From Microbacterium kyungheense (lineage in GTDB: Bacteria > Actinomycetota > Actinomycetes > Actinomycetales > Microbacteriaceae): a DNA stretch of 64,000 nucleotides. A program made the position numbers and the translations under genes. The stretch is taken from contig NZ_VFPE01000002.1 of assembly GCF_006783905.1 (NCBI RefSeq), positions 248,001 to 312,000 on the forward strand. The letters are read 5' to 3'. Of the stretch, positions 1-16,200 are shown in pieces. The notes under the pieces were generated by a model. It did not search any database. It saw only the letters and a program-made list of their open reading frames with translations, and had not been told where the DNA came from. Each line of letters opens with the position of its first letter. Position 1 is the stretch's first letter.

Positions 1-31
1 CCGACGAGCAGCCACTCCGAAGGGCGCGACA

Positions 32-436
32 GTGCGTAAGCAGATCAGCGTTGTCGGTGCAGTGATCGTTCGCGACGGCAACGTACTGTGCGCGAAGCGC
101 GGCCCGTGGGGCAGCCTCGCCGGGCACTGGGAGTTTCCGGGCGGCAAGGTTGAGCCAGGCGAGACCGCACGGAGCGCTCTCGAGCGGGAGATCGCTGAGG
201 AACTCGCCTGCAGCATCGATGTGGGAGCCAACCTGACGACGACGATCCATGAGTATGACTTCGGTGTCGTGACGCTTACGACGTTCTGGTGTCGGCTGAT
301 CGAGGGTACGCCGCAGTTGGTGGAGCACGCCGAGGTCCGGTGGTGTCCGCCGAGCGAGCTCGAAAGTCTCGACTGGGCGCCGGCCGACGTTCCGGCGATG
401 CGGATGATCGTCGAGGGCGCCAGGTGTAGCCGCTAG
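32..436 (+). CDS. Nudix hydrolase, NudG/MutT-like (modified nucleotide pyrophosphohydrolase)
   Basis: This 134-residue protein has a complete Nudix box (G38, E44, R52, E53, E56, E57), with the EFPGGKVEPGE segment typical of MutT and NudG. The C-terminal WAPADVPAM segment resembles the LAPADIP tail of E. coli CTP pyrophosphohydrolase NudG. Family members hydrolyse 8-oxo-dGTP or modified pyrimidine triphosphates such as 5-methyl-dCTP, and the exact substrate cannot be read here. The start is GTG. The gene converges on the SRA-like nuclease gene, and their stop codons share the bases ctag (433-436), which suggests a long-standing pair. A housekeeping MutT role is the alternative. Confidence 0.85.
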   Translation: MRKQISVVGAVIVRDGNVLCAKRGPWGSLAGHWEFPGGKVEPGETARSALEREIAEELACSIDVGANLTTTIHEYDFGVVTLTTFWCRLIEGTPQLVEHAEVRWCPPSELESLDWAPADVPAMRMIVEGARCSR

Positions 437-1524
437 GGCTGCACCAACTCAAATGAGTCTCCATCGCGGGAGGCGAGGGTGATTCCCAGGTCAGCCGTAA
501 GTTCCTGCAGGTCGGGCTCTGCGCGTCCGGGCAGCAGGATCATCGGCGTCACCTGCGCATCGAGCGCACGGGCGTTGTGGGTGTAGTCCAACACCTGACC
601 GATAGCCATTCGGACGTATTCGCGGCCCGTTGACTTCTTCGCCTCAACCACCCAACCCTCGGCCTCCACGTACATGTCTGGCTCGATGATCGCTCCGGCG
701 ACGGGAAGCCGCAGTCGGCTGGGCGGCGTGCCCCGATCGGTGAGCCACCGTCCGAAGTCCGCCTGAAGCTGAAACTCCTGACGCGACACGACACGATCGC
801 CTGGCGGGAGCTGAGTGGCATCAACAATCGCGTTGATATCAGAGGCGTCGGGCGGGTCCCAGCGGCCGACCTGTGGCTTGAGGAGCCGAAGCTGGCCGGG
901 GTTCGGAGCGAGCAGCGCGGGGTTGGCATCCAGCGGCACGAGGTTGAAGATGATAGCCCGCCGAGGGTTACCGTCAGCGCCAGGAATCTCGTGGAAGGAA
1001 CAGAGCGGATCTCCCGTGGTGAACGCACCTACATAGGTTGCGTAGGGCGGCTGAGCGTTAAAGACACGAATCGTGCGCGCCTCGTCCGCAGCATTCAGTA
1101 GCGCCTTGTTCCCGCGCGTGAACTCCTGGTGCCCGGACTGCCCCTCGCCGGTGTACGCGAAGCTTCCGTCAGCCTGCAGCCCTTCGTGAAGGTCGTAGCC
1201 ATATCGCGACCCCCGCGCCGGATTAGTGAAGATGAAAATGTCGGGAGTGCGGCTGGATGAAGAAATTCCGCCTTGCTGACCGCCACCATACTGACGATGA
1301 AGCTGCCGGCGGCGCACGGTGTCTCCGACTTCGAGTGCCCATTCGCGCGGCGCGCCGTCTGCAGCAGGCAGCCTCGACCGCACCTCCTCGGACTGCAGGT
1401 CGTCGAGGACCCAACGAGTCGTGTCCGCGGGCAACGTTCCGTATAGGTCGCGGAGTATCTGACGGACCCGCTTTTGACTCACGCCGGCCTCCAGCGCGAG
1501 CAGCGCCGGAGTGGTCGGATCCAT
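433..1524 (-). CDS. Modification-dependent restriction-type nuclease: SRA-like domain plus PD-(D/E)XK nuclease
   Basis: The 363-residue protein begins with a short helical region (about 1-60). An SRA-YDG-like domain of the ScoMcrA type follows (about 75-200), recognised by HRQYGGGQQGGIS, TPDIFIF, GSRYGYD, YTGEGQ, RGN and the RVF..Y.YVG stretch. The C-terminal half has a PD-(D/E)XK core with D283, E294 and K296 (EPDMY then VVEAKK). SRA-type domains read 5-methyl or 5-hydroxymethylcytosine and ScoMcrA relatives cut modified DNA, so a type IV restriction enzyme is the best reading. No methyltransferase is adjacent, which fits. I chose the ATG at 1524 because the upstream extension to 1671 is basic and low in complexity. 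No strong ribosome site is visible. Confidence 0.75.
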   Translation of the reverse strand: MDPTTPALLALEAGVSQKRVRQILRDLYGTLPADTTRWVLDDLQSEEVRSRLPAADGAPREWALEVGDTVRRRQLHRQYGGGQQGGISSSSRTPDIFIFTNPARGSRYGYDLHEGLQADGSFAYTGEGQSGHQEFTRGNKALLNAADEARTIRVFNAQPPYATYVGAFTTGDPLCSFHEIPGADGNPRRAIIFNLVPLDANPALLAPNPGQLRLLKPQVGRWDPPDASDINAIVDATQLPPGDRVVSRQEFQLQADFGRWLTDRGTPPSRLRLPVAGAIIEPDMYVEAEGWVVEAKKSTGREYVRMAIGQVLDYTHNARALDAQVTPMILLPGRAEPDLQELTADLGITLASRDGDSFELVQP

Positions 1525-2004
1525 AGCCGGCAGCGTATCGGTCGTGGCGGGTCGGTTGTTGGAGCTTGTCGGACCGCACGCGTGTCGGAAGCGGCGCGCG
1601 GTCGCCTTCTTGTGTCGTGACCACGACACGGCGCTGCAAACGCTCGGCCGGGAGAACCCGCCGGTTCTCACCTATGAGCTTCTGATTCGCAGAAGGCACC
1701 GCGCTCTCGGGATCGAACCCCGCCTTTCAGCGCGAGAATTCGGAGGCGCGTACCTTCTTGGTCCAGATGCGCCTTTCCACCTCCGAGCTGCGGGACGAGA
1801 TACGGCATTCCTTCTGGCTGCTCAAACGGGCCGCCTCGGCGAAGGCTCTTGAGCGGCTTCTGAAGCAGCACGAGGTCTTCAAGGACTACACGATTGTCCT
1901 TGCCGCCGGCGACGGTCGCACGGAAGACGACACCGACTCGGTCCCAGCGGCGGGCAAGGCCTGTATGGGGGTCGCAGGGTGGGTCGACCGGCGGCGGTGC
2001 TGAG
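1525..2004. other. 480-bp gap with one weak unassigned open frame
   Basis: No convincing gene is present. A plus-strand frame is open from about 1686 to 2003. Its only start is a TTG at 1758, giving 81 residues that begin MVQMRLSTSELRDEIRHSF. The first 50 residues look helical and protein-like; the rest does not. It may be the remnant of a deleted gene. A short stretch near 1705-1725 resembles a tRNA T-loop but forms no tRNA. Confidence 0.3.
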
Positions 2005-2586
2005 TCACGTGGGAGGCTCGATAGGCCGCAGAGCTCCGGCCGCGTCCAGCAGCTTCAGCGACGCCAGGACGGCGTTGTCGCGGTACGTTTTCGAGCTTGC
2101 AACCGCGCGAACAGCCTCCACGACCTCACGTGACCCGATAACAGCGACCGGGCCGACGCCCAAGATCTGCTGGGCGCACCACTCGCGCACCGCAGCCTCG
2201 TGCGCGGCGCCCGCGAACTTCCCGACGTACAGGCGCAACTCGACGAGCTCGATCGGGTACCCGAAGCGAGATGCGGCGCCGGAGACGACGCCGTCGCGGA
2301 CGACCGGGTTATTGATCACCGCGTACTTCGCATTCCACACCTTGTCAGCGCTGTCACCGCGCACATGCGCGGCGACCACACCGCGGGAGCCAAAGAACGA
2401 CTTGACCGTCGCAAGCACCAGCCGGTCCGCACGGGCGCCGACGAGGTCGACCTCGAACCCGTGCGTCTGGTACTCGGGATACGCTGTCTTCGACGTTCGG
2501 ATCGTGACCGGGAACTTTAGCGCCTCGGAGACGACGAGGCCCTCTGATTCCATCGCCAACGCGACGAACTGTTCGAAAGCTTCCAC
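2005..2586 (-). CDS. Uncharacterised nuclease-fold-like protein
   Basis: This 193-residue protein has no name that I can support. Residues 44-70 (FEVDLVGARADRLVLATVKS and following) have the spacing of a PD-(D/E)XK core, with D47 and K62 in place but Thr60 where Glu is usual. E21 lies upstream, as in many members of the fold. The remainder is alpha/beta, with a helical C-terminus that begins near a WCAQQ segment (about residue 135). It sits between two other nuclease-like genes on the same strand, so a role in DNA restriction or repair is likely by context. The nuclease call is inference; a non-catalytic DNA-binding relative is possible. Confidence 0.6.
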   Translation of the reverse strand: MEAFEQFVALAMESEGLVVSEALKFPVTIRTSKTAYPEYQTHGFEVDLVGARADRLVLATVKSFFGSRGVVAAHVRGDSADKVWNAKYAVINNPVVRDGVVSGAASRFGYPIELVELRLYVGKFAGAAHEAAVREWCAQQILGVGPVAVIGSREVVEAVRAVASSKTYRDNAVLASLKLLDAAGALRPIEPPT

Positions 2587-2625
2587 GACGCCGAGCGTAT
2601 CCGCCTGGCCCGGGCCGCAGTCGTC

Positions 2626-3462
2626 TCAGTCCTCTGAGCGGGTTGGGAGCTGTGCGCGCAGCGAAGACAGCGATGGCCCCGAGAGGCTGCCGACCCGCCA
2701 CATCTCCCAGCCTCCGAATCCTCCGGAGCTTGTACCGTCAAACGCCGCGGCAGCAGCCCGTGACGGGTTGCTGTACCCGGCACCATTCACAAGGATGTTC
2801 CCGTCCGGAGCTATCGTTCCCCGCCCTTCGAGGCCGTGGCGAGTGCAATACAGCTCCGACCCGGCCTGAAGGAGCCCCTCAGCGAGGAGGTCGGCGACCG
2901 TGCCGGGAATGGCTGTGCGGGTGAAGGTCGTCGTCGGTGCCGACTGCGCTGGGACGTCGTCGAGCCGATCCATTCGCAGACCGGTGAGGCGAATGGCGGC
3001 AAAGATCGAGGGCATGATCGCGTCCAGCGGCATCATCGCCGGCGCCGACAGCGTGGTGTCCTCGTCGACCTTCCCCTTGACCACAGTCAATCCAGGAATC
3101 GCGTCGAGTTCTGCAGCAAGACGCCCTTCGAGGTAGCCGATATCAGCGGAGCTAAATCCATGGGAGGTGTCGCGCTTTATGAGCACGGCACGCGTCCAAG
3201 CTGGCACCTGCGCGTTCGACCGCCTGTGCACCGCGAGCCGATCGCGGAGCTTGGTGGACTGCCCGACGTATATCTGCCGGGAGCCGTCGTCAACGAGCAG
3301 GACATAGATGCCTGGGCTGCTCCACTCCGCCTCGGCAAGACGCAGAATCTCTTCGCGAGCCACGTAGGCAACCCGAATCGCATGCTCCGTGAAGTCCGCC
3401 ACGATGGGTGCATTCGCCGATGAGGGAATCTGGACTGTAGCGAGGACAGCGGCTGAGCTCAT
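2626..3462 (-). CDS. GIY-YIG nuclease with C-terminal RAMA-like domain
   Basis: The 278-residue protein has a GIY-YIG core at about 49-125: GIY at 51-53, IYVGQS at 64-69, R73/R75, and a likely catalytic Glu112 in YLEGRL. The C-terminal part (about 195-275) contains LLAEGLL..G..LYC, a GTIAPDGNI hairpin, a YSNPSRAAA helix and a final WEMWRV. This matches the RAMA/DUF4357 pattern, which is predicted to recognise modified DNA in restriction contexts. Together this suggests a nuclease targeted by DNA modification. The ATG at 3462 has a GGAGG only one base upstream, so the true start may be an upstream in-frame codon such as the ATG at 3498. Confidence 0.75.
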   Translation of the reverse strand: MSSAAVLATVQIPSSANAPIVADFTEHAIRVAYVAREEILRLAEAEWSSPGIYVLLVDDGSRQIYVGQSTKLRDRLAVHRRSNAQVPAWTRAVLIKRDTSHGFSSADIGYLEGRLAAELDAIPGLTVVKGKVDEDTTLSAPAMMPLDAIMPSIFAAIRLTGLRMDRLDDVPAQSAPTTTFTRTAIPGTVADLLAEGLLQAGSELYCTRHGLEGRGTIAPDGNILVNGAGYSNPSRAAAAAFDGTSSGGFGGWEMWRVGSLSGPSLSSLRAQLPTRSED

Positions 3463-3914
3463 TCCTCCATCATGCCGTCGGCCGCCGACCGTGAGCATGT
3501 GCCGGTGATCGCCGCGGTGCGCGACCGCTTTTGGACTGAGGTGACCTGTACATGTGCGTGGCGGACGATCGCGGTGCGGCAGGACCGGCGGGTGTCGGAG
3601 GCACTGACCGCTGCTGTCCCGGCGTGGTAGTGCACCCTTTCTCAAGCGACCGGGTCGTAGTCCGCCTAGGAGGCGAGCGCGATGCGACGACCCACGCCCT
3701 CACCTCGCTCGACCCTGAACGGCCTAGCCGGATTCTCCCAGACAGTCGCCAGCGAGTAGCACCGAATGTGGCGGCACCAGCGGGGTCAGTGGTCCATCTA
3801 GTCCTGGCGCCGTGGCGGCAGCGTGTGCGGCGCATGTATTGCACACATTTCGGGTAATGGGTTACTGCTGCTGTGCAGCAGCCCAAGCGGGCAACAAGAG
3901 TCCGGGGAGACGCG
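3463..3914. other. 452-bp gap with no supported gene
   Basis: Both strands have open frames here, but they are basic, repetitive and look like GC-rich chance frames. The segment near 3830-3865 is relatively AT-rich and may hold the promoter of the next gene. A short inverted repeat (GCTGCT, then GTGC, then AGCAGC) lies at 3867-3882. Confidence 0.4.
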
Positions 3915-4866
3915 ATGGGGACGGAATGGCTGCTGCTCGCAGTCCCGAAGCAGGACTACGACGAGCTCAAGCACATGGTCGACTTCCGGCAGAAGCAGCG
4001 CGGTGAAGCACCAGCCCCCCACCGCGGAACAAGTGCGGGACAGCCAGCTTGCGAAAGACGCCGTCGTCCGTGCCGCTTTCGCCAAGCACGAGCCGTGGCC
4101 GGAGCATGCGCTTGCTCGTCTGGCTGAGGGCTCCGCGATCACGACGCAGCGCTTCGCGCAGGTGGTAGACCTGTGCGCGGCAACGCCCGGGGAGGACCAC
4201 CGCTACTCCACGGAGGAGCTCGCAGAGAAGACCGGGATGAACGTCAACGAGTGGCGCTCCGCCTGCCGGAAGATCCGGCTTCACCTCGAGAAGCACCACC
4301 CCGAGATCCCGCGGACCGACGCCGGCAACCCGGAGTGGCCGCTGGTGGACATGTCCGGCCGCACCCTCGGCGAGCGCGACCAACTGTACGTCGGCATCAC
4401 CGAGGAGCAGGCTCGCCGATGGAGGACCGTGCGATGCCTCGCCAGCGCCCCTCAATATGCGTCGCTGGATACCGCGCTGCGCAACAAGCACGTCCCGGTG
4501 GCGAACGACCGGTTCATCAAGGACATGCTGCACGCTGTCGGTGTGGAAGGCGCCTACCAGACGACCGGGTACATCGTCGTCGTACGTGCCGGGGTGGGCC
4601 CTGACCTCAACACCTATCGGGGCGCCACCAACGGGTTCGTCTCCAAGGAAGAGGTCATCGCTGTTGCCGGCGAAGGACCGCGCCGGGAGCCGAGCGATCA
4701 GACGGGACTGTGGCGGGTCGTCCATCCTGAGGATCCCGGCGGGCGCGAGTCCGGGCCGACGAGCAGCCGAACTTCACCGCGCGACTACGGTCAGTGCCCG
4801 GAGTGCTTCAGTCCGATGACGCCGAGCGGGTTTTTCACGGGCGTGGGGTGCGAGCACGCCGGCTGA
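3915..4866 (+). pseudogene. Frameshifted unknown gene with C-terminal zinc ribbon-like motif
   Basis: The ATG at 3915 follows a GGGGAGA ribosome site and encodes MGTEWLLLAVPKQDYDELKH onward. After about 34 residues the protein-like reading moves to the next frame (VRDSQLAKDAVV, later STEELAEKTGMNVNEW) and stays open to 4866. The switch falls at a run of six C at about 4015-4020. Removing one base gives exactly 317 codons. The middle resembles a winged-helix segment (about 110-160), and the end has CPECF...GVGCEH, a possible metal site. The function is unknown. A sequencing indel, a real mutation or programmed slippage would all fit. Confidence 0.6.
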
Positions 4867-5005
4867 GCTAACCGAGGGCTGCTCCGTGGACGAATTTCGC
4901 GACATATGACCAGCATTTGTGTCGTGATGATAAGAAACCCCACATGGCCCAAAATACTGTCCGCCGCATCGGTTACGGTGGCCAGAAGAGAGGCAGGTGG
5001 TGCCG

Positions 5006-5353
5006 ATGGGGAAGGACCAGAAACCCAGTGCGAGGCAGGAAAGAGCGCAGCTCGTGGACAAGTGGCGCAGAGAGAACGGGCTATACCCCCATCAACAGCC
5101 GGAGGCGCAGGAGGCGAGGAAGCGCAGGCAGGCTGCCGCGGCGAAGAAGCGCGGGAGGCAGCCTCAGCACAAGGAACCGCCCAGGCACCGCACCGCGGAG
5201 AGGACGAATGCGAAGGGCGAGAAGATCCTCGTCCAGTACGGCACTACGAAGGCATCCAAGCGCAACCCGGTGCGCCTGACGGACGGCATGGTGCATCCGG
5301 TCAACGTGGACTTCGCGAAGCCGCACGGCCCGACGTCGGACCTCGCGGAGTAG
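5006..5353 (+). CDS. Small basic hypothetical protein
   Basis: The 115-residue product is very rich in Lys, Arg, Gln and Ala (RKRRQAAAAKKRGRQ in the first half). It ends with a more ordered segment, VRLTDGMVHPVNVDFAKP. The composition suggests nucleic-acid contact, but no family is recognised. GTG codons at 4997 and 5000 are in frame upstream of the ATG at 5006. I kept the ATG because the upstream purine-rich stretch fits a ribosome site for it. It lies between the frameshifted gene and the integrase, a place where elements often carry excisionase or regulatory genes, but no helix-turn-helix is visible. Confidence 0.55.
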   Translation: MGKDQKPSARQERAQLVDKWRRENGLYPHQQPEAQEARKRRQAAAAKKRGRQPQHKEPPRHRTAERTNAKGEKILVQYGTTKASKRNPVRLTDGMVHPVNVDFAKPHGPTSDLAE

Positions 5354-5372
5354 CTGCGGCCGCGTGTCTGAA

Positions 5373-5392
5373 CTGTTGCGCTGCAGCAACAG
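5373..5392. repeat. Palindrome between the small basic gene and the integrase
   Basis: CTGTTGC and GCAACAG form a perfect 7-bp inverted repeat around GCTGCA. It starts 20 bp after the stop of the upstream gene and lies about 225 bp before the integrase start. It could be a terminator stem without a T-tract, an operator, or an arm-type recombinase site. Confidence 0.45.
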
Positions 5393-5615
5393 AACCGTGC
5401 ACCGTTAGGGTGAGCCTCTGCGATGAGTGCGGCGAGAATGGAGCCGTGCTCGATCGCTTCACTCTCGGCGTCGGAGGAGGCGCCCCTCGACTCCAACACC
5501 ATTTGACGACGTCTTCCGCCATCTATCCACATCTGTCGTCGGCCGCATTGACGGCCTCCGACCAGTGTTCGACACTGGCCCAATACTGACGATCGAGCCG
5601 GCACGGGAGGTCGAG

Positions 5616-6746
5616 ATGGGCAGCATCACCCCCTACGAGTCGGCGAAGGGCCGCCGCTACCGCGTGCGCTATCGCAAGCCGGATCGCACCGAGGCGGAAA
5701 AGCGCGGCTTCACGACGATGCGCGAAGCGAAGCTGTACCTCTCGATGGTCACGGTGTCGAAGTCGAAGGGCGAGTACATCGACCCGTCCTCGTCGCGGGT
5801 TCCTGTCCGGATGTTCGCCGACAGCTGGCTGCGATCCAAGCAGCCGCCGATGTCGAAGCCCTCGTACTACATGACGCTCGAGCGGGCGTGGAAGAACCAT
5901 GTCGCGCCGGTATGGGCCGACAGGGAGATCTCGTCGATCCGGCGCTCGGAAGTCCAGGATTGGGTGTCCGACCTTGCGACGCAGAAGTCGCGCACGGTCG
6001 TTCTTCGAGCACTGGGAGTCCTCGCCGGCATCCTCGACGTCGCCATGGACGATCGCCGCCTCGCGAGCAATCCAGCCCGCCATGTGCGCAACCTTCCCCG
6101 GCACGGGCCGGGCAAGCGTCGCGTCTACCTCTCGCATGACCAGGTCGCGACGCTGGCGGCGTGCTCGGCGTATCCGACGCTTGTCCTGACGTTGGCGTAC
6201 ACCGGCCTCCGCTGGGGCGAGGCGACGGGACTGCGCGTGCGCAGCGTGAACCGCCTCCGACGGCGCTTCGTCATCGAGGAGAACGCGGTGATGATCGCGT
6301 ACGAGATCCATGTCGGCACGCCGAAGACGCACGAGAAGCGCTCGGTCCCGTACCCCGAGCGTCTCGCTCCGATGATCGACCAGGCGTGCGCCGGGAAGGG
6401 TCCCGAAGGGCTGCTCTTCGGCGACGAGGTCAATCACATGCGCAACTCGGGCAGCAAGGGATGGTTCGCGAATGCGGTCCGGCGCGCGCAGGAGTTCGAT
6501 CCATCGATCCCTCGGCTCACCCCTCACGACCTCCGCCATACCGCCGCGTCACTCGCGATCAGCTCGGGTGCGAACGTGAAGGCCGTACAGCGGATGCTCG
6601 GGCACGCGTCCGCGGCGATGACGCTGGACACCTATGCCGACCTCTTCGACGACGATCTGGATGCCGTCGCGACCCGTCTGAACGACCAGATGCCGTTGGT
6701 GGCGCTGCCGTCAGGGCCGCAGACTCGCTACGCCCGACCTCAGTGA
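5616..6746 (+). CDS. Tyrosine recombinase / site-specific integrase
   Basis: The 376-residue protein has the full lambda-integrase layout: a basic N-terminal arm-binding part (about 1-60), a SAM-like core-binding domain (about 64-160) and a catalytic domain. The catalytic residues are R199 (TGLRWGE), K237 (TPKTHEK), H304 and R307 (HDLRH), H330 (MLGHAS) and nucleophile Y340 (DTYAD). It integrates and excises mobile DNA, probably at the neighbouring tRNA-Arg. The ATG at 5616 has a good ribosome site (GGGAGG, 5-base gap); the frame stays open upstream but the residues there are not integrase-like. It carries the only GGATGCCG octamer seen in the element. Confidence 0.95.
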   Translation: MGSITPYESAKGRRYRVRYRKPDRTEAEKRGFTTMREAKLYLSMVTVSKSKGEYIDPSSSRVPVRMFADSWLRSKQPPMSKPSYYMTLERAWKNHVAPVWADREISSIRRSEVQDWVSDLATQKSRTVVLRALGVLAGILDVAMDDRRLASNPARHVRNLPRHGPGKRRVYLSHDQVATLAACSAYPTLVLTLAYTGLRWGEATGLRVRSVNRLRRRFVIEENAVMIAYEIHVGTPKTHEKRSVPYPERLAPMIDQACAGKGPEGLLFGDEVNHMRNSGSKGWFANAVRRAQEFDPSIPRLTPHDLRHTAASLAISSGANVKAVQRMLGHASAAMTLDTYADLFDDDLDAVATRLNDQMPLVALPSGPQTRYARPQ

Positions 6747-6954
6747 CCCCAGAGAGCAGATTGCTCAGTATTTCGACGAGGCAGATCTCGCCCGAAACGC
6801 TCGATTTGACGCTCTCAGACGTCCCGCGAAGGCCGTTGCAGACGGCCGTTGTCGGCGCTCCAAAATTTAAGAATGCGGGCAAAAAGCGGGCAAAAACGCG
6901 TTTCGCGTGGTCTGACCACAGAAGAAACACCTGGTCAAGGGCAAAAAGAGACTG

Positions 6955-7026
6955 TGCCCCTGGAGGGACTCGAACCCCCAACCGTTTCCTTAGGACGGAA
7001 CTGCTCTTCCATTGAGCTACAGAGGC
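6955..7026 (-). tRNA. tRNA-Arg(CCT)
   Basis: The reverse strand folds as a complete tRNA. The acceptor stem pairs GCCTCTG with CAGGGGC. The D arm is GCTC/GAGC, the anticodon loop is GTCCTAA with anticodon CCT, the variable region has five bases, and the T arm has loop TTCGAGT. The 27-43 pair is a G-A mismatch. CCA is not encoded. The 3' end points toward the integrase, so this gene is the probable integration target, and its 3' part would be one attachment site. Confidence 0.95.
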
Positions 7027-7068
7027 TGGCCGAACGAGTCTACCTGGGCACGGCCGTCCCACGACGAA

Positions 7069-7112
7069 GGCCCCGGCATCCATCCGCGAAGGGACAAGTG
7101 GATGCCGGGGCC
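7069..7112. terminator. Terminator-like hairpin
   Basis: GGCCCCGGCATCCA (7069-7082) pairs perfectly with TGGATGCCGGGGCC (7099-7112) across a 16-base loop. It lies just downstream of the IscA-like gene on the minus strand. There is no T-tract, as is common in actinobacteria. The stem contains the GGATGCC word that recurs in other hairpins of this window. Confidence 0.6.
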
Positions 7113-7127
7113 GCAAGCCGCGGGGCG

Positions 7128-7409
7128 TCAGCCCTGGGTCGCGAGGGCGAAGCGCACGGCGCCGTCGTCCGACAGTTCCGCGTCGAGGACGCGGTCCTCG
7201 AGTGCGATCGCGGCAGTCTCGTCGAGGAAGACGCGGGCGCCGTCCGTGACGACGATCGTGTCGGCCGGCTGCGGGTCGGGGGCGACGCTCAGCTCGAATC
7301 CGCCGGTGCCTCCCGTGTCTCGGATGCGGACGCCGCCGTCCTGGACGGCGGGCACTCGCGAGACGATCTCTTTGACGGCCTCGGCGGCGGTCTGGGTCAG
7401 CGTGAGCAT
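7128..7409 (-). CDS. IscA/HesB-like protein lacking cysteines
   Basis: This 93-residue protein matches the A-type iron-sulfur carrier fold: LTLTQTAAEAVKEIV at the N-terminus, GGVRI, FELSVAPDPQPADTIV, then GARVFLDETAAIALEDRVLD. The three cysteines that bind iron-sulfur clusters in IscA and HesB are absent; there is no cysteine at all. It therefore probably does not carry clusters, and its role is unknown. The ATG at 7409 has a good AAAGGA ribosome site. Proteins of this kind are often annotated simply as iron-sulfur assembly protein, and that label should not be trusted here. Confidence 0.75.
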   Translation of the reverse strand: MLTLTQTAAEAVKEIVSRVPAVQDGGVRIRDTGGTGGFELSVAPDPQPADTIVVTDGARVFLDETAAIALEDRVLDAELSDDGAVRFALATQG

Positions 7410-7542
7410 GCGTTTCCTTTCCGTTGGGGCTGTGAACCGGCCACGATTCCGAGATCCGCGCCGGTCCGCAACCCCTACGCGCCGTCCGGTGCCGATTCGG
7501 AGGGAGCTCCCATGTTTTCGGTGGATGCCGCATCCCGGCCGG

Positions 7543-7743
7543 TCAGGGGCGCTGTCCGCCGCCTCCACCGGGTCCGGCGCCCATGCCGCCTCCCATGCCA
7601 CCGCCGGCCACGTTGGAGCCCTCGGTGACGGTGGCAGCTGTCGTGCCGTTGACGGCCACGCTGTACGAGCCGCCGTCGGTCAGCGCCGGCCCGCTGTAGA
7701 ACACCGCGCGGAAGTCGCGCCCGGCCTCGAACGTCGTGTCCAT
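7543..7743 (-). pseudogene. Possible C-terminal remnant of a carbohydrate-binding domain protein
   Basis: The 66-residue frame reads VFYSGPALTDGGSYSVAVNG and then a Gly-Met-rich tail (GGGMGGGMGAGPGGGG). The pattern of a hydrophobic strand, S-P-x-L, GGSYSV and a Gly-rich end resembles the C-terminus of large secreted proteins with a DUF4353-like carbohydrate-binding domain. Nothing of the expected several-hundred-residue body is present upstream, so I read it as the remnant of a deletion. A short independent protein is possible but less likely. Confidence 0.4.
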
Positions 7744-7902
7744 GCTTCATGGGTACGGGCCGCACTTACGACGGGTCTTGCCGCCTTCTATGAGGCAGCC
7801 CGGCGAAGAATCCTTATCGGATCAGAAAGTTCCGTGGTTTTCTGAGCCGTGTCGGGTGACTTACGTGGCGTACCGACGCGACGGTCTGACATCGTGGCAC
7901 GC

Positions 7903-9456
7903 ATGACCCGCATTGGCATCGTCGCCGAAGCGCCCGGAGAGAACCGGGTGGCCGCGACCCCCACCACCGTTCCCAAACTCATCGCCCTGGGCTATGACGT
8001 CGTCGTCGAAGCCGGGGCGGGGGCGGCGTCGTCGTTCCCGGATGCCGCCTACGCAGCATCCGGAGCCGTCGTGGTGGATGCGGCCACGGCCTGGGCGTCA
8101 CCGGTGGTGCTCAAGGTGAACGCGCCGACGCCGGCCGAGATCGACCGTCTCGCCGACGGGGCGACCGTCGTCGCGATGCTGAGCCCCGCACTGCGACCGG
8201 ACCTCGTCGACGCGCTCGCGACACGAGGCATCACCGCCGTGGCGCTCGACGCGGTGCCGCGCATCTCGCGCGCGCAGTCGATGGACGTGCTGAGCTCGAT
8301 GGCCAACATCGCCGGCTACCGCGCGGTCGTCGAAGCCGCGCACGAATTCGGGCGGTTCTTCACCGGGCAGGTCACGGCCGCCGGCAAGGTGCCGCCGGCC
8401 AAGGTGCTCGTGGCGGGCGCCGGCGTGGCGGGCCTGGCGGCGATCGGCGCCGCGTCGAGCCTGGGCGCGATCGTCCGCGCGACCGACCCGCGCCCGGAGG
8501 TCGCCGACCAGGTGGCGTCGATCGGCGGCCAGTACCTGGAGGTGGTCGTCCCCGACGAGAATAAGCAGGTGTCGGCCGACGGCTATGCGAAGGCCACGAG
8601 CGAGGCGTACGACCGGCGGGCGGCCGAGATCTACTCGGAGCAGGCGGCCGACGTCGACATCATCATCACGACGGCGCTCATCCCCGGGCGTCCCGCACCT
8701 CGCCTCATCACCGCCGCAGACGTGGCGCGCATGAAGCCGGGGAGCGTCATCGTCGACATGGCGGCCGGTCAGGGCGGCAACGTCGCGGGCTCGATCGCGG
8801 GGGAGCGGGTCGTGACCGACAACGGCGTCGTGATCCTCGGGTACACCGATCTGGCCGGACGACTCCCGCAGCAGGCGTCCCAGCTGTTCGCGACGAACCT
8901 CGTCAACCTGCTGAAGCTGCTGACACCCCGCAAGGACGGTGTGCTCACGCTCGACTTCGACGACGTCGTGCAGCGCACGGCCACCGTCGTCCGCGACGGC
9001 GAGGTGACGTGGCCGCCGCCGCCCGTCCAGGTGTCGGCCGCCCCCGCCGCGGCATCCGCGCCCGTGCAGGCGTCGTCTGTCCCCGCCGCACGCGCCCCGA
9101 TGTCGGCGGGTGCGCGCACGGCGCTCATCGCCGCGGGGATCGCCGCGCTCTTCGCCGTATGCGCGTTCGCGCCACCACCCCTGCCGCAGCACTTCCTGGT
9201 GCTCACGCTTGCCGTCGTCGTCGGCTTCTACGTCATCGGGCACGTCGCGCACGCCCTGCACACCCCGCTGATGAGCGTCACCAACGCCATCTCGGGGATC
9301 ATCGTGGTCGGCGCCATGGTGCAGATCACGGCGCCCGACCTCACGGTGCAGATCCTCGCGGCCGTCGCGGTGCTGCTGGCGAGCATCAACATCTTCGGCG
9401 GCTTCGCCGTCACGCGTCGCATGCTCGCCATGTTCCGGAAGGGTGAGGCCCGATGA
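7903..9456 (+). CDS. pntA: NAD(P) transhydrogenase subunit alpha
   Basis: The 517-residue protein begins with the NAD-binding dI domain ([21 protein letters not shown]; a Rossmann segment with [48 protein letters not shown]). After an Ala/Pro linker it ends in membrane helices (about 420-515). So the alpha subunit is in one piece, as in E. coli, rather than split into A1 and A2. With PntB it couples proton flow to hydride transfer between NADH and NADP+. The ATG at 7903 was chosen because the protein begins TRIGI there. The gene overlaps pntB by four bases (ATGA). Confidence 0.95.
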
Positions 9457-10874
9457 TCGCGGTCGCGGGTGCCGTCGCCGCGGCGGCCTACGTCGTCGCG
9501 GCCCTGCTGTTCATCCTGAGCCTCGCCGGACTCAGCAAGCACGAGACCAGCCGCCGCGGGGTGACCTTCGGCATCGTCGGAATGATCGTCGCGCTCGTGG
9601 CGACGGTGTGGCTCACCGCCGCCGGCGCGTGGGGCACCCCGCAGGGCGCGACGGGGCTCGTCCTGCTCGTGGTGGCCGTCGTCGTGGGCGGTGCGATCGG
9701 ACTGTGGCGTGCGCGCGTCGTCGAGATGACCGGGATGCCGGAGCTCATCGCCCTGCTGCACTCGTTCGTCGGACTCGCCGCGGTGCTGGTCGGCTGGAAC
9801 GGCGCTCTGTACGACGCCGGACTCGACGGTGCCCTCGCCGACATCCACCATGCGGAGGTGTTCATCGGGGTCTTCATCGGCGGCGTGACCTTCACGGGCT
9901 CGATCGTGGCGTTCCTGAAGCTGTCGGCCCGCATTTCGTCGCGACCGCTCATGCTTCCCGGCAAGAACGTGCTCAATGTCGGTGCGCTCGTCGTGTTCGT
10001 CGCCCTGACCGTCTGGTACGTCCTCACGCCCGAGCTGTGGCTGCTCGTGCTCGTGACCGTCCTGGCGCTGGCGCTCGGCTGGCATCTGGTCGCCTCCATC
10101 GGCGGCGGCGACATGCCCGTCGTCGTCTCGATGCTCAACAGCTACTCCGGGTGGGCCGCGGCGGCGGCCGGCTTCCTGCTGAACAACGACCTGCTGATCG
10201 TCACGGGAGCGCTGGTGGGCTCGTCAGGCGCCTACCTGAGCTACATCATGTGCAAGGCCATGAACCGCTCGTTCCTGTCGGTCATCGCGGGCGGCTTCGG
10301 CATCGAGGCGCCGAAGGGCGGCGACGAGCAGCAGGGCGAGCACCGCGAGATCGACGCGGCGAGCGCCGCCGATCTGCTCGCGGCAGCCGGCACCGTCGTC
10401 ATCACGCCGGGGTACGGCATGGCCGTCGCACAGGCGCAGCACGGTGTCGCCGACCTCGTGCAGAAGCTGCGCGAGCGCGGCGTCGACGTGCGGTTCGGCA
10501 TCCATCCCGTCGCCGGTCGTCTGCCGGGACACATGAACGTGCTGCTGGCCGAGGCGAAGGTGCCGTACGACATCGTGCTCGAGATGGACGAGATCAACGA
10601 CGACCTCGCCCGGACGGACGTCGTGTTGGTCATCGGTGCGAACGACACGGTCAATCCGGCGGCCGCCGAAGACCCGTCGAGCCCGATCGCCGGAATGCCC
10701 GTGCTGCGGGTGTGGGAGGCGTCGAATGTGATCGTCTTCAAGCGCTCGATGGCCTCGGGATATGCGGGCGTCGCGAATCCGCTCTTCTTCCGTGACAACA
10801 CGCAGATGCTCTTCGGCGACGCGAAAGACAAAGTCGACGAGATTCTCATGCAGCTCTCACGGATTTCCGTCTGA
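9453..10874 (+). CDS. pntB: NAD(P) transhydrogenase subunit beta
   Basis: The 473-residue protein has about eight or nine membrane segments in its first 270 residues (including [18 protein letters not shown] and [17 protein letters not shown]). The NADP-binding dIII domain follows (about 300-473), with [50 protein letters not shown] and [16 protein letters not shown]. It is full length and translationally coupled to pntA. A strong terminator follows directly, so pntAB is a two-gene unit. It is probably an important NADPH source or sink. Confidence 0.96.
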
Positions 10875-10885
10875 GACGGAGAACA

Positions 10886-10925
10886 AAAGGCCCTCACGGC
10901 GATGCTGATCGCCGTGAGGGCCTTT
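10886..10925. terminator. Strong bidirectional terminator after pntB
   Basis: An 18-bp perfect stem (10886-10903 with 10908-10925) surrounds the loop GCTG. Its outer end is AAA and TTT on the two sides, so it can act in both directions. It separates pntB from lsr2, whose stop is about 13 bp away on the other strand. Confidence 0.9.
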
Positions 10926-10938
10926 CGTCGGATATCGG

Positions 10939-11289
10939 TCAGTGCGCTGCGTCGTAAGCGTCGAGAATGGATGCCGGAACCCTGCCCCGCTCCGACACCT
11001 TGAAGCCGTTCGCCTTGGCCCACTCCCGGACGACGCCGAGGTCGCGCTGACCCGCGCGGCGGCGGCCTGCGGCAGCGGGGGCGGGAGCGGTGGAGCGCCC
11101 GGAGCTCACGCGCCGGCCGGCGGAGGTGTAGGCCGAGAGGGCGTCTCGCAGTGCGGCGGCATTCTCAGCCGAGAGGTCGATCTCATATGCGATGCCGTCC
11201 AGCGAGAAAAGGATGGTCTCGCCGTCGCCGACTTCGAGGACGGTGCCGTCGATGTCGTCGACGAGCTGATGGATGATTTTACGGGCCAT
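10939..11289 (-). CDS. lsr2: Lsr2-family nucleoid-associated protein
   Basis: The 116-residue protein has the Lsr2 layout. The N-terminal dimerisation half is MARKIIHQLVDDIDGT, then ISFSLDGIAYEIDL-like residues, then LSAENAAALRDALSAY. An Ala/Arg linker follows. The C-terminal DNA-binding domain (about 80-116) is LGVVREWAKANGFKVSERGRVP, with the RGR minor-groove loop. Lsr2 binds AT-rich DNA and silences horizontally acquired genes in actinobacteria. I took the ATG at 11289, where family members begin, over a TTG two codons upstream. It shares the pntB terminator in the opposite direction. Confidence 0.95.
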   Translation of the reverse strand: MARKIIHQLVDDIDGTVLEVGDGETILFSLDGIAYEIDLSAENAAALRDALSAYTSAGRRVSSGRSTAPAPAAAGRRRAGQRDLGVVREWAKANGFKVSERGRVPASILDAYDAAH

Positions 11290-11370
11290 AAGCAATCACA
11301 TTACGCAGGGCAATTGCATGGTGGCAAACAATTCGCCGGGACGCGCCGACAATAGGCGCGCGCAATGGTG

Positions 11371-12294
11371 TCAGGGAAGGATTCCGGCCCGGCGCGCCAT
11401 GACGACGGCGGCATGCCGGGTCGACGCATCGAGTTTCGCCATCGCGGACTGCAGGTACGACTTGACCGTTCCTTCTTTGAGGTCCAGCGCTGTGGCGATC
11501 TCGGCGTTGGTCGAGCCCAGCGCGGCGCAGGCCAGGACGTCGAGCTCTCGGGGGGACAGCCGCACATCGAGCTCCACCGACTGCTCGGCGGGATCCTGCG
11601 AAAGGGCGGCCAGGCGATGCTCGAGGCGATCGAGTCGCGCGCGGACGGCCGGATCGGCCACGATCGCCGAGATGCTGCGCAGCTCGGCATACGTCTCGCG
11701 CAGCCCTTCCCGCGTCGCGGCCGGAAGGGTCGCAGGTGCCGCAGCGCCACGGTTGCGCGTCAGCCGGCGCTGCACCTCGTCACGGATGCGCAGCTCGCTC
11801 GACAGCTCGTCGGCCACCGCGAACGCGGGCCGCGCGACGACGTCGCCCACGGGCGCTTCGGCCCACGACCCGCAGTAGATGACGCCGCGGGCGCGGCCCG
11901 TCACCATGATCGGGACGGCGAACAGCGTCGCGATGCCCTCGCCGAGCACGGCACGGTCGTAGTCGTGGGTGATGCTGCGGGCCGAGCGGTAGTCGATGGC
12001 GAGGCGCGGTCGCTGCTCGATGAGCGCACGGCCGCCCAGACCGCGGGCGGCCTCGACGACGAGGCCGTCGAGGCTGTGGGTGCGTGCGCCATGGATCGAC
12101 GTGACATGGATCGCGCCGTCGAGGACGAGGCCGCCGAACGCGACGGGGAATCGTGTGCGTCGCACGAGCTCGGCCACAGCATGGTCGAGGGCCTGTGCGT
12201 CGCTCAGGTCGTCGTCGGGTGCGCCGAAGGCAGCACGGACCCCCGCTCGAGCGCTCTCGGGGCCCGGTGCCTGGTGTGGGAGGGACGCGCCCAC
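11371..12294 (-). CDS. GAF-domain LuxR-type transcriptional regulator
   Basis: The 307-residue protein has a GAF-like sensory domain in its first 170 residues (FGGLVLDGAIHVTSIHG, then ATLFAVPIMVTGRARGVIY), a helical linker, and a LuxR helix-turn-helix at about 245-305 (LSPRELDVLACAALGSTNAE, IATALDLKEGTVKSYLQSAM). The layout resembles RamA, the corynebacterial regulator of acetate metabolism, but orthology cannot be claimed by eye. The GTG at 12294 is the only good start. It stands alone between lsr2 and the MGMT-like gene, so neighbours do not reveal its targets. Confidence 0.8.
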   Translation of the reverse strand: MGASLPHQAPGPESARAGVRAAFGAPDDDLSDAQALDHAVAELVRRTRFPVAFGGLVLDGAIHVTSIHGARTHSLDGLVVEAARGLGGRALIEQRPRLAIDYRSARSITHDYDRAVLGEGIATLFAVPIMVTGRARGVIYCGSWAEAPVGDVVARPAFAVADELSSELRIRDEVQRRLTRNRGAAAPATLPAATREGLRETYAELRSISAIVADPAVRARLDRLEHRLAALSQDPAEQSVELDVRLSPRELDVLACAALGSTNAEIATALDLKEGTVKSYLQSAMAKLDASTRHAAVVMARRAGILP

Positions 12295-12425
12295 GACTAC
12301 CTACTTCCGGGTGACGGCGTCCTCGCCGCCGGTTTTCGTAGCGTCGACCCTATCACCGGGCGCTCCCACGGGGGCGGGGGAAGGGCGGGGCCCAGGCGCT
12401 GCCTCGGCCCCGCGACGCGGGCGGC

Positions 12426-13031
12426 CTACACGCCCGCGGTCTGCGCATCCTGCGCACCCGGCGGGGCGCTGGGGATGCTCGGTCTGCTTTCGAGCTCGAT
12501 GAGGAAGCGCTTGATGTCGGGCCGCCCCCCGTACTCGCCGAGCGACCCGTCGGCGCGCACCACGCGATGCACGGGGACGACGATCGAGAACGGTGTGGTG
12601 GCGCACGCGGTGCCCACCGCACGTGCGGCCCGGGCCACTCCGGCGGCGATGGCCACTTCGCCGTAGCCCGCGGTCTCGCCGTAGGGGATGTCGCAGACGG
12701 CCTCGAGCGCGGCGCGCGTGAACCCGCGCACGAGGCGCCAGTCCAGCGGGAGGTCGAAGTGCGTGCGGGTGCCGTCGAAGTACTCGTCGAGCTGCGTCTC
12801 GGCCGCGTCGAACGGGTCGGGCTCGACATCGGTCGCACGGCTGTCTTCGGCATCCTCTCCGATATCGGGGACAGGGACGGCGCGCAGCTGCAGCGAGACG
12901 CGCTCGATCTCGTTGTCGAGCGGGCCGTCGAAGGGATGCAGCGTCACGATGCCGTCGTCGGTGACGACGATGAGGATGTCGCCGATGGGCGACGGGTGGA
13001 CGCGGTAGCGGGGCGGATCCGTCGTGGTCAT
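12426..13031 (-). CDS. MGMT/Ogt-family protein without the catalytic cysteine (alkyltransferase-like)
   Basis: The 201-residue protein aligns by eye with O6-alkylguanine-DNA alkyltransferases: a FDLPLDWRL-type N-terminal domain, helix FTRAALEAVCDIPYGETAGY, RAVG at 137-140, and the active-site strand IVVPVHRVVR. The invariant PCHR motif is PVHR here: Val154, codon GTG at 12570-12572 on the minus strand. The usual Asn of the NP segment just before it is also changed (TTP). It cannot accept an alkyl group on cysteine. Alkyltransferase-like proteins (Trp or Ala in place of Cys) bind lesions and hand them to nucleotide excision repair, so that is the likely role. Confidence 0.85.
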   Translation of the reverse strand: MTTTDPPRYRVHPSPIGDILIVVTDDGIVTLHPFDGPLDNEIERVSLQLRAVPVPDIGEDAEDSRATDVEPDPFDAAETQLDEYFDGTRTHFDLPLDWRLVRGFTRAALEAVCDIPYGETAGYGEVAIAAGVARAARAVGTACATTPFSIVVPVHRVVRADGSLGEYGGRPDIKRFLIELESRPSIPSAPPGAQDAQTAGV

Positions 13032-13237
13032 GCGACCATCCTTGCGCTCGGGGACCCGCTCACAGCCGGCGGGATCGCGGACTGTGGGAAACCGGCGGCT
13101 GTCGCGGAGAAGCTGCATACGGGGGAGGAGGGGAGGCCCCGCCGGCCGCCCAATACCGCGAAACTCAGGTCCATTGCAAGTGCCCTGTGCGTGCTCCGCT
13201 TAGGGTGGCTCGTGTGTGGCGAGCAGAGCGGAGCGCC

Positions 13238-16200
13238 GTGTTGGGCGCAGAAGACGCCGAACGCGGGTCGGTCGTGACCCCCGGCGATCTCGGCCTCGCC
13301 GAACCCGACGTGACGGTCGTCCACGTCGCCGAACCGGAGCGCGACCGCCTGCGACTGCAGTCGGCGGCGCTCGGCGGCCGCTCCACGCTGCAGCACTTCA
13401 TCGACGGCCAGGATGCGGCGATCGAGATCACCAAGGCGCACCCCGGCAGTCTGCCGCAGTTCATCACCGGCAGGTCGACGCTGCTGTCGAACCTGTTCCG
13501 CGACGAGGTCGCGCTGCGCGGCGCGCGGCTGGCCGCCGAGCGCATCACCGCCAAGGACCTCGAGCTGCGCACGACGCGGGGGCTCGACACCGTCCGTCTC
13601 GCGGTCGGACTCGCCCACTGGCGGCTGGGCGGACTGGTGTGCAGCGCCCCGGTGCTGCTGCGCCCCCTGGCGATCCGCCGCCACCACGGGGACTTCGAGC
13701 TCAAGCTGCACGGCACGTTCTCGGTCAACCCCGAGCTGGTCCGCGCGATGCGGCGTCACTTCGGCATCGCGATCGACGCGGGCGGCCTCGCCGCCCTCGC
13801 GTACGAGGGCGGCGTGTTCAAGCCGCAGCCGGTCATCGACCACCTCCGAGCGCTCACGGCGTCCATCGACAGCTACGTGGTCAAACCGCGTCTGCTGGTG
13901 TCGAGCTTCGCCGACGTGGGCGGGCGCATGGCGGCGGATGCCGCGAACCTCGACCATCCCGTGCTCAACGCGCTGGCGGGCCACGTCTCGGACCGTGAGT
14001 CTCTCACCATCCGCCGTGACGGACCCGTCCCGACCAGCCCCGACCACCGCCCCCCGGCGGCGGACACCCTGCTCCTGGACGCCGACTCCGAGCAGGAGCG
14101 GGTCTTGGCGCGCATCGCCGACGGCCAGTCCCTCGTCGTCCACACCCTCCCGGGCACCGGCGGCACCCAGACGGTCATCAACACGATCGGCCAGCTGGTC
14201 CGCGCGGGCAAGAACGTGCTCGTGGTCAGTGCGCGGCGCTCCACGCTCGACGGCGTGCGGCATCGCCTCGCCGGCATCGGGCTGCCGGGGCTCGCGGTGT
14301 CGCCCGACAGGTTGCAGCGCGACCTCATCCGCGCGATCGGCCGCAACGAGAAGGCAGAGAGTCCCAAGGTCGCCGACATCGACGACGCCCTCGTGCGGCT
14401 GCGCGGCGTGCTCGGCGACTACCGCGCCGCGGTGACCGACCGGCATCCCTCGCTCGGCGTCTCGGTGCTCGACATCCTGCGCGCCCTCGCGACGCTCGCC
14501 GAGTCCGGCGTCGCGCCGGCGACGGAGGCGCGCTTCGACGAGGACGCCCTCGAGAGCCTCGCGACGACGCGCCCCGAGGCCGCGGCGAAGCTCGCGGCGG
14601 CCGCGCGACTGGGGGAGTTCCGCTTCGGCCCCGACGACTCTCCCTGGTACGGCGTGACGTTCTCGACCGTCGAAGAGGCGCGTGCCGCGCACGCCCTGGC
14701 GGGGAAGCTGCAGCGCAGCGACCTGCCCACGCTGCTCGAGCGCGGCTACGAACTGGTCGGCCAGACGCGCATGCGCCCCTTCCAGACCGTCGACGAGCTG
14801 GGCGCGTACCTGCGCCTGATGCAGGGGATCCGCGACTCCCTCGACAAGTTCAGCATGACGGTGTTCGAGCGCCCCCTGGGTGAGCTGATCCAGGCGCATG
14901 CCGCCCGCCGGGACGCGCCCGACATGACGGGGGCGAACCGCCGCAGGCTGCGGCGCCTGTCGCGGGAGTACCTGCGTCCCGGCGTCCATGTGCCCGACAT
15001 GTATGAGGCGCTGGTGCGCATCCAGCAGCAGCGCACCGAGTGGCAGCGCTACGTCGAGTCCGGGGTGACCCCCGAGGTTCCGCTCGGCCTCGGCGACGTG
15101 CAGGTCGCGTGGCACCGCGTCGAGTCCGAGCTGGGCGAGCTCGACGGCGTCCTCGGCCGCAGCGGACCTGATCGGCTCGGGGCGCTCCCCGTGAAGCAGC
15201 TCGTGCGCACCCTCGCGGGACTCGCCGCCGACTCCGACGTGTTCGACAACCTCAAGGAGCGCGCCACGCTGCGCACCGAGCTGGCAGCCCTCGGCCTCGA
15301 GCCGCTGCTGCTGGAGCTGTCGGTGCGGCATGTGCCCGAGGAGCAGGTCGCCGCCGAACTGGAGTTCGCGTGGTGGCAGTCCGCGCTCGAACTGGTGCTG
15401 CGCACCGACCGCGCCGTGCTCGGCGCCAACACCGCGGTGGTCGACCGTCTGGAGCGGGACTTCCGCCTCGTGGACGAGGCGCACGCGGCGGCATCCGGAC
15501 CGCTCCTCGCCGCACAGCTGGCCACGCAGTGGCGGATCGGCATCGTCGACCACGCCGACGAGGCCGCTGCGCTCAAGCAGGCGCTCAAGCGGGGGGCGGT
15601 GACACCGGCCGAGCTCGTCGCCGTCGCACCGACCCTGTCGCGGACGCTCGCTCCGGTGTGGCTGGCGTCGCCCTACGAGGTCCCGCGGATCCCCGAGGCG
15701 GCGGCCTTCGACGTCGTCGTGCTGGCGGATGCCGCGGCCCTGTGCCTCGCGGAGGCCGCACCCGCGCTGCGCCGGGCGACGCAGGTGGTGGCGTTCGGTG
15801 ATCCCGTGACGCAGAAGCCGACGCCCTTCGTGGTCGGCGCCGGCGTCTCGGCGCCGTCCGTGCCCGCCGCGCCGGCGGGAGAGGGCGCCGCCGACGACGA
15901 GGCGCCGTTCGATCACACCAGCGTGTTCGAGCGGCTGGCCGAGCTGTTCCCCGTCGAGACGCTGACCCGCAGCTACCGTGCGGGCGGCGAGGACCTGGCG
16001 GCCCTGGTGAACGACGCGTTCTACGGCGGCGAGCTCGTGTCGCTGCCCTGGGCGGGGTCGTACCTCGGGCGCGGCAGCCTCGCGGTGGACTACGTCGAGG
16101 GTGGCCACGGCGCCCCCGATCCCGTGACGGGCGCCGTCGAGAGTCCCGACTCCGAGGTCGCGCGCGTCGTGACGCTCGTGGTCGAGCATGCCGTGAACCG

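Follow-up and report, generated by a model that had tools for sequence, protein, structure and literature searches.

At one end of a 64,000-nucleotide stretch of the genome of Microbacterium kyungheense (NCBI RefSeq assembly GCF_006783905.1, contig NZ_VFPE01000002.1, forward-strand positions 248,001 to 312,000, or G000:C2:248001-312000 in our coordinates), referred to here as the window, an integrative element inserted at a tRNA-Arg gene carries several genes for nuclease-like proteins. Two genes at the very start of the window, encoding a predicted modification-dependent nuclease and a Nudix hydrolase, form a pair that recurs in other genomes and is our main subject. The two genes converge, and both stop codons lie within the CTAG at 433-436:

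32..436, plus strand: NudG/MutT2-like Nudix hydrolase of 134 amino acids (aa), PADLOC PDC-S07; predicted modified-dCTP pyrophosphatase.
433..1524, minus strand: SRA-like reader plus PD-(D/E)XK nuclease, 363 aa; architecture of the MspJI type, preceded by a small N-terminal domain.

The first-pass annotation of this DNA had read the product of 433-1524 as an SRA-like domain joined to a PD-(D/E)XK nuclease, and this is borne out by structure, although Pfam alone falls short: SAD_SRA scores 17.2 bits, under the cut-off of 30.7, and a profile of seven nuclease sequences reaches the SRA chains of ScoMcrA and SUVH weakly (E 0.005 to 0.7). The AlphaFold2 model (mean predicted local distance difference test 80, predicted template modeling score 0.52, with a poor linker at residues 229-245) has AspBHI as its top Foldseek match (E 1.6e-8), and VIA-align gives Z scores of 12.8 and 12.7 for the SRA domains of ScoMcrA and SUVH5, of 10.2 and 9.9 for AspBHI and MspJI over both domains, and of 9.1 for SauUSI (7clg). 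The C-terminal domain matches the folds of NucS/EndoMS, AF1548 and XisH, and its nuclease motif, E-P-D and E-A-K-K, is unchanged in all seven sequences. With an N-terminal SRA-like domain recovered by structure alignment and a C-terminal PD-(D/E)XK domain with an intact motif, the modelled protein has the MspJI-type architecture and is predicted to be a modified-cytosine-dependent endonuclease. The likeness to the MspJI family (MspJI, AspBHI, LpnPI) extends over both domains in the alignments with AspBHI and MspJI; the differences comprise an identity of 15-16%, a root-mean-square deviation of 13-14 Å over both domains, which implies a different domain placement, a small domain added at the N-terminus of the longer members, the Nudix partner, and an ExK motif where MspJI has QxK.

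No PADLOC model matches this protein, and its nearest named relatives are in Microbacterium. Among 53 pattern matches in viral contigs none was confirmed as a relative, and plasmids yielded partial, distant matches alone (12 records). In phages, relatives were found in one phage present in two records, Gordonia phage Sidious, whose gene 63 (L274) is 37% identical to the nuclease over residues 95-350 and adjoins two methyltransferase genes; no annotated Nudix gene lies within 3.5 kb on either side of it. A reading of L018, L019 and L082 as fusions of an EVE domain with a nuclease, made by eye, was set aside, with Pfam empty for L018 and L019.

The identification of the partner as a NudG-like Nudix protein holds as well. 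Pfam NUDIX matches at E 2.6e-18, and the PADLOC profile PDC-S07 at E 1.1e-52 (175.3 bits, residues 1-128 on profile positions 3-130 of 135); the top NCBIfam model is NudG (PRK10546 equivalog), at 103.8 bits with the cut-off of 156 not reached, and we therefore describe the protein as NudG-like and do not assign it as NudG itself. The nearest structures by sequence are, in order, 5x1x (annotated as MutT), 2RRK (E. coli NudG), 3gwy and the MutT2 structure 5zrc. NudG (Orf135) of E. coli and mycobacterial MutT2, which are chromosomal housekeeping genes, unlike the gene in the window, are thus among the closest solved relatives and have the Nudix box and an APAD-like motif in common with it. The Nudix-box catalytic residues and the WxxxD aspartate are unchanged in all 52 rows of the family alignment that were counted. 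In the part of PMC5389931 that concerns it, NudG is given as a 5-methyl-dCTP pyrophosphatase.

A scan of genome contigs, built on patterns of seven relatives and therefore favouring close kin, yielded 33 nuclease loci with flanks of at most 6 kb, some shorter; Nudix genes were sought with a hidden Markov model (HMM) built from the Nudix proteins of the first SRA loci. In 23 of them the relative reaches into the SRA part at an identity of 45% or more; this set keeps the near-duplicates L063/L064 and L065/L066 (with almost identical Nudix proteins) and excludes L078, a fragment of the nuclease domain whose neighbouring Nudix gene is duplicated. In 20 of the 23 the Nudix gene stands directly tail-to-tail with the nuclease gene; among the other three, it lies 1.36 kb off in L062 and is absent from L059 and L061. 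Within the family genomes, a convergent Nudix gene follows the nuclease in all six relatives of at least 46% identity. The layout is convergent in every one of the 20 adjacent pairs. Sixteen have overlapping 3' ends, the overlap being 4 bp (CTAG or TTAG) in the seven cases printed and likewise in L053, while the remaining four pairs are separated by 0 to 37 bp. The Nudix of L057 sits inside an 885-codon open frame that we take to be an artefact of open reading frame (ORF) calling. No other neighbour family occurs in more than eight of the 33 loci: the one found in eight is an ORF antisense to the nuclease, and the next families that are not antisense occur in seven.

A second recurring pair, a MazG-like pyrophosphohydrolase gene and a GIY-YIG/SLFN-helicase gene, is present in seven of the 33 loci (L055, L061, L063, L064, L070, L072, L082). 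In L061, where the Nudix is absent, the MazG-like gene (L061:7122-7529, plus strand) follows the SRA nuclease at a distance of about 30 bp and, in this single case, may by analogy be a functional replacement of the Nudix; the human MazG-like enzyme DCTPP1 is linked to 5-methyl-dCTP (PMC4491611).

The same Nudix family also accompanies a second kind of enzyme. In a Nudix search of 150 family genomes, seven of 29 further loci have the Nudix gene directly upstream of a large ORF; the four of these ORFs that were scanned by Pfam contain PLDc_2, ResIII and DUF3427, and the one ORF compared with the PDB matches SauUSI (7clg) at E 1e-221. SauUSI cuts DNA containing 5-methylcytosine (5mC) or 5-hydroxymethylcytosine and has an SRA-type reader for it, according to passages of PMC7913695. 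When 199 family and 246 phylum genomes were searched for DUF3427, with E<1e-60 taken as full length, 11 SauUSI-type proteins were obtained, and a Nudix gene is adjacent in all 11 (ten upstream on the same strand, one convergent); seven of these loci were first found via the Nudix search, with the denominator coming from the DUF3427 searches, and the count includes the short (100 aa) Nudix frame of L153. SauUSI-type enzymes are accordingly similar to the window's nuclease in their reader and their Nudix neighbour, and differ in having an ATP-dependent PLD nuclease and helicase, with a Nudix gene that in most cases precedes them on the same strand instead of converging with them.

When the same HMM was applied to control restriction loci, no Nudix was found in any of the 32, that is, in 20 HsdR loci (148 kb; 20 of 38 matches taken, one ended by its contig) and 12 McrBC loci (132 kb; all 12 matches); six loci of proteins with a strong Pfam SRA match (flanks of at most 1.5 kb) were equally empty. 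Since the HMM scores unlinked Nudix proteins at E 2e-51 or better, the empty controls do not result from a narrow model, and the Nudix thus accompanies particular modified-cytosine enzymes and not restriction generally.

In a tree of 54 Nudix rows (24 of them labelled SRA, including both L078 copies; the short 100-aa frames of L053 and L153 were left out), the SRA-linked Nudix fall into two main clades, one held in common with most SauUSI-linked Nudix and including that of the window, the other with other MutT-like genes. The tree has seven label changes, at least three of them forced by well-supported (starred) branches, compared with a mean of 17.9 after shuffling. The same Nudix family has been taken on as a partner more than once. 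This history bears on one explanation of the pairing, namely, passive co-transfer, by which two genes that are both common cargo of mobile islands would have come together by chance. The pair in the window does lie inside a mobile element, and the MazG-like pair in seven loci indicates that other combinations travel with the nuclease; however, the invariant convergent layout of the adjacent pairs, mostly with overlapping 3' ends, the recruitment from different Nudix clades, and the 32 empty control loci make chance association very unlikely.

Three other neighbourhoods of the Nudix family deserve mention. In L121 (3910-5247), the Nudix gene and that of a 296-aa HNH_2 endonuclease converge, just as the Nudix and SRA nuclease genes do. 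In L122 (5038-9720), it is followed by a GmrSD_N gene and a gene for a RelA/SpoT-domain protein, with a C5-cytosine methyltransferase on the other strand. In L098 (1480-2931), a Nudix of the family adjoins an ORF that, judged by eye, resembles thymidylate synthase or dCMP hydroxymethylase.

Taken together, the domain and fold predictions, the conserved pairing, the repeated recruitment and the absence from HsdR and McrBC loci, all of which were computed, lead us to a proposal in which the substrates, the cleavage and the direction of benefit are inferred. We hold with moderate confidence that the functional unit is a module of an SRA-type nuclease and a NudG-like Nudix that removes modified dCTP and so shields the host DNA. 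The module, which travels on an integrative element inserted at tRNA-Arg, would act as follows. When phage or plasmid DNA enters the cell, the SRA domain, judging from fold and architecture, would flip 5-methyl- or 5-hydroxymethylcytosine out of the helix, leaving the C-terminal PD-(D/E)XK domain to cut near the modified base. Salvage of the destroyed DNA, or synthesis by the phage, could give rise to 5-methyl-dCTP or 5-hydroxymethyl-dCTP, which the Nudix, to judge by its subfamily and its specific, repeated pairing, would hydrolyse to the monophosphate, and the cut signal would thereby be kept out of the host chromosome during replication. The kinship with NudG and the pairing make the removal of C5-modified dCTP the likeliest role of the Nudix. 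That the Nudix keeps modified nucleotides from the host's own DNA had been suggested in the first-pass annotation, and the conserved, specific pairing with the SRA nuclease, a pattern of sequences and gene order, is what fits that part of it. The genome of the window yields no match to a C5-cytosine methyltransferase at E<=1e-10, and therefore a nuclease that cuts at 5mC would spare the host unless modified dCTP enters the pool.

The same chemistry would equally serve an attack on the phage. In that case, the Nudix would be a weapon that destroys hydroxymethyl-dCTP or other modified deoxynucleoside triphosphates (dNTPs) of the phage, so that phage DNA made without the modification would be open to ordinary restriction and modified DNA to the SRA nuclease. 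The pairing data suit this equally, and a cluster resembling a restriction-modification (R-M) system, with a type ISP-like methyltransferase and helicase/PLD genes, lies in the same element; however, phages that methylate their DNA after replication would be unaffected, and we consider this alternative fairly unlikely.

Several observations weigh against the shielding proposal or narrow it. The pairing is no universal rule: the Nudix is missing from the McrBC loci, even though these enzymes also depend on cytosine modification, from the loci with a strong Pfam SRA match, from all six distant SRA-PD relatives (28-41% identity), from nine of ten remote proteins with partial DUF3427 (the tenth, L156, has a weak, divergent match at E about 1e-6), and from three of the four loci with the nuclease domain alone, the fourth being the fragment L078; among the close relatives, L059 has a nuclease with neither Nudix nor MazG. 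Conversely, 20 rows of the tree are not within 1.5 kb of an SRA-PD or SauUSI gene, although at least two of these adjoin other candidate modification-dependent enzymes, HNH_2 (L121) and GmrSD_N (L122), and PDC-S07 matches unlinked Nudix proteins, too (L128, L121), so that this profile is no marker of the paired kind. C5 methyltransferases, which a host of the module might be expected to lack, occur in five of 16 module hosts and in 16 of 28 hand-picked non-hosts, a difference that is not significant (P 0.13; G004, among the 28, has a nuclease-domain relative); a cut-off of E<1e-30 chosen post hoc gives 0/16 versus 15/28 (P 0.0002), which we do not count as a test. Furthermore, NudG accepts CTP and dCTP as well (a reference given in PMC5389931), so the modified base may not be the substrate of the Nudix. 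The range of substrates of NudG and of MutT2, along with the occurrence of Nudix of the same family on their own, would accommodate a different step, in which the Nudix acts on a nucleotide released by the nuclease or on a signal, or sanitises oxidised dNTPs after cleavage. We regard such a step as unlikely because it leaves unexplained the absence of the Nudix from HsdR and McrBC loci, where DNA is also broken.

The remaining features at this end of the element are as follows:

2005..2586, minus strand: 193-aa protein with a possible PD-(D/E)XK-like fold (weak); passenger, outside the pair.
2626..3462, minus strand: GIY-YIG plus RAMA protein, 278 aa, PADLOC PDC-S14; passenger, outside the pair.
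4003..4866, plus strand: ORF with no informative match to any family; probably belongs to the element.
5616..6746, plus strand: tyrosine integrase of the element, Phage_integrase E 9.1e-19.
6954..7026, minus strand: tRNA-Arg(CCT), the integration target.
6957..6975, plus strand: 19-bp attachment (att) core at the tRNA end; second copy outside the window, at G000:C2:219799-219817.

The annotation of the 2626-3462 protein as GIY-YIG with a RAMA tail stands for its second half: RAMA scores 62.1 bits, above the cut-off of 35.2, and PDC-S14 matches at E 5e-95 (316 bits, residues 1-275 on 1-274 of 280), whereas GIY-YIG, at 16.5 bits, is under its cut-off of 22.6. The portion of PMC11037411 dealing with RAMA treats it as an unproven or disputed reader of N6-methyladenine (6mA), and GIY-YIG-RAMA fusions are noted in the same paper as possible 6mA readers. 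Apart from the window's own, the 249 family genomes contain one full-length relative, on a contig that carries an HSDR_N match and a RhuM gene. The 193-residue protein described as nuclease-like is encoded by a real ORF, with no match in Pfam, PADLOC or NCBIfam and one chance-level match in PHROG. Its model has a weak likeness to restriction-like folds (best E 3.4e-4, to an R2 retrotransposon protein), and a threonine replaces the usual acidic residue before the lysine (TVK), which makes nuclease activity doubtful. Its full-length relatives, in three genomes, have differing neighbours (PDDEXK_4 in one, TIR and DUF1883 in another). At 3915-4866, a short ORF that starts at 3915 overlaps one of 287 aa that starts at 4003; the two frames may be one interrupted gene or two genes.

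These neighbours had originally been combined with the pair into a single five-gene system with two readers of modified DNA, for which the adjacency of the genes in this one genome speaks. That grouping does not survive comparison: the GIY-YIG/RAMA gene, the 193-aa gene, the 4003-4866 ORF and a small ORF near 5.0-5.35 kb each occur in none of the 33 SRA-nuclease loci (within their flanks of at most 6 kb), where the integrase is found in four. In other genomes, no SRA nuclease gene lies within 1.5 kb of the relatives of the GIY-YIG/RAMA and 193-aa proteins, and the wider loci around these relatives contain no such Nudix (0/1 and 0/3, respectively). Among the 249 family genomes, including its own, the nuclease, the GIY-YIG/RAMA protein and the 193-aa protein occur together in the genome of the window alone, and the 193-aa protein co-occurs with either of the other two in no other genome; G167, an exception of sorts, combines a remote match to the SRA-PD protein with a match to RAMA alone, the latter in another protein of greater length. 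The check proposed with the original grouping, whether the genes are unlinked in relatives, thus gives a split answer, with two of the four cargo genes unlinked and the Nudix/SRA pair staying linked. The two-reader system was rejected and is scarcely credible; the other nuclease-like genes look like unrelated passengers of the mobile element.

The assignment of the element itself is upheld. The integrase, in which the catalytic set R...HxxR...H...Y was recognised by eye, sits at the 3' end of the tRNA gene, and the 19-bp repeat at the tRNA end recurs directly at C2:219799, where no tRNA gene was found, so that the element spans about 35 kb; some 28 kb, most of its length, lies beyond the window, with the nuclease-type genes at one end. 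An empty integration site was sought in six relatives, in which the tRNA side alone matched and the left flank was not beside the tRNA. In L051, L052 and L127, too, a relative of the nuclease has tRNA-Arg(CCT) beside it. Further cargo includes a TrwC relaxase, a type ISP-like methyltransferase, PLD/SNF2 and ResIII helicases, RmuC, a weak PemK-like match, a Fic protein, an ASCH protein and an insertion sequence. In L002, positions 4288-15638 (G000:C2:234288-245638) hold the type ISP-like methyltransferase, the PLD/SNF2 helicase, a weak HEPN_Swt1 match, two ORFs without a match, the ResIII helicase and a helix-turn-helix regulator, a cluster that looks like a multi-gene restriction system. The relaxase gene (L002:1157-3897), with its AAA/UvrD_C part in a different frame, looks broken, and the ASCH-domain protein (L008:11760-12236; marginally above the Pfam cut-off) lies toward the far end of the element.

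Part of the association is already in print. As reported in a passage of PMC12813430, PDC-S07 is co-localised with type IV R-M, within 20 genes, in all 23 of its occurrences in Streptococcus suis, and a figure legend in PMC7641849 shows that gene neighbourhoods of Streptococcus have homologues of MutT adjacent to those of SauUSI; PADLOC lists PDC-S07 and PDC-S14 as separate defence candidates. Our literature search, which did not cover preprints, found neither a pairing of an MspJI-like or SRA-PD nuclease with a Nudix nor a stated mechanism, so that the co-localisation is known in part, whereas the proposed mechanism and the SRA-PD pairing are new as far as this search goes.

If correct, the shielding proposal would explain why the defence candidate PDC-S07 travels with type IV restriction. 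Modification-dependent nucleases would turn toxic to their own host whenever the dNTP pool holds 5-methyl- or 5-hydroxymethyl-dCTP, and self would be told from foreign by a route other than methylation. It is quite possible, and we suggest it tentatively, that cytosine-modification-dependent restriction has a self-immunity arm, in the form of a pyrophosphohydrolase that accompanies the nuclease, prevents the mark from entering the nucleotide pool and has been recruited repeatedly from different Nudix lineages, perhaps with a MazG-like substitute once (L061). Under this still provisional generalization, R-M systems would protect self by adding a mark, and SRA-type type IV systems would do so by excluding it.

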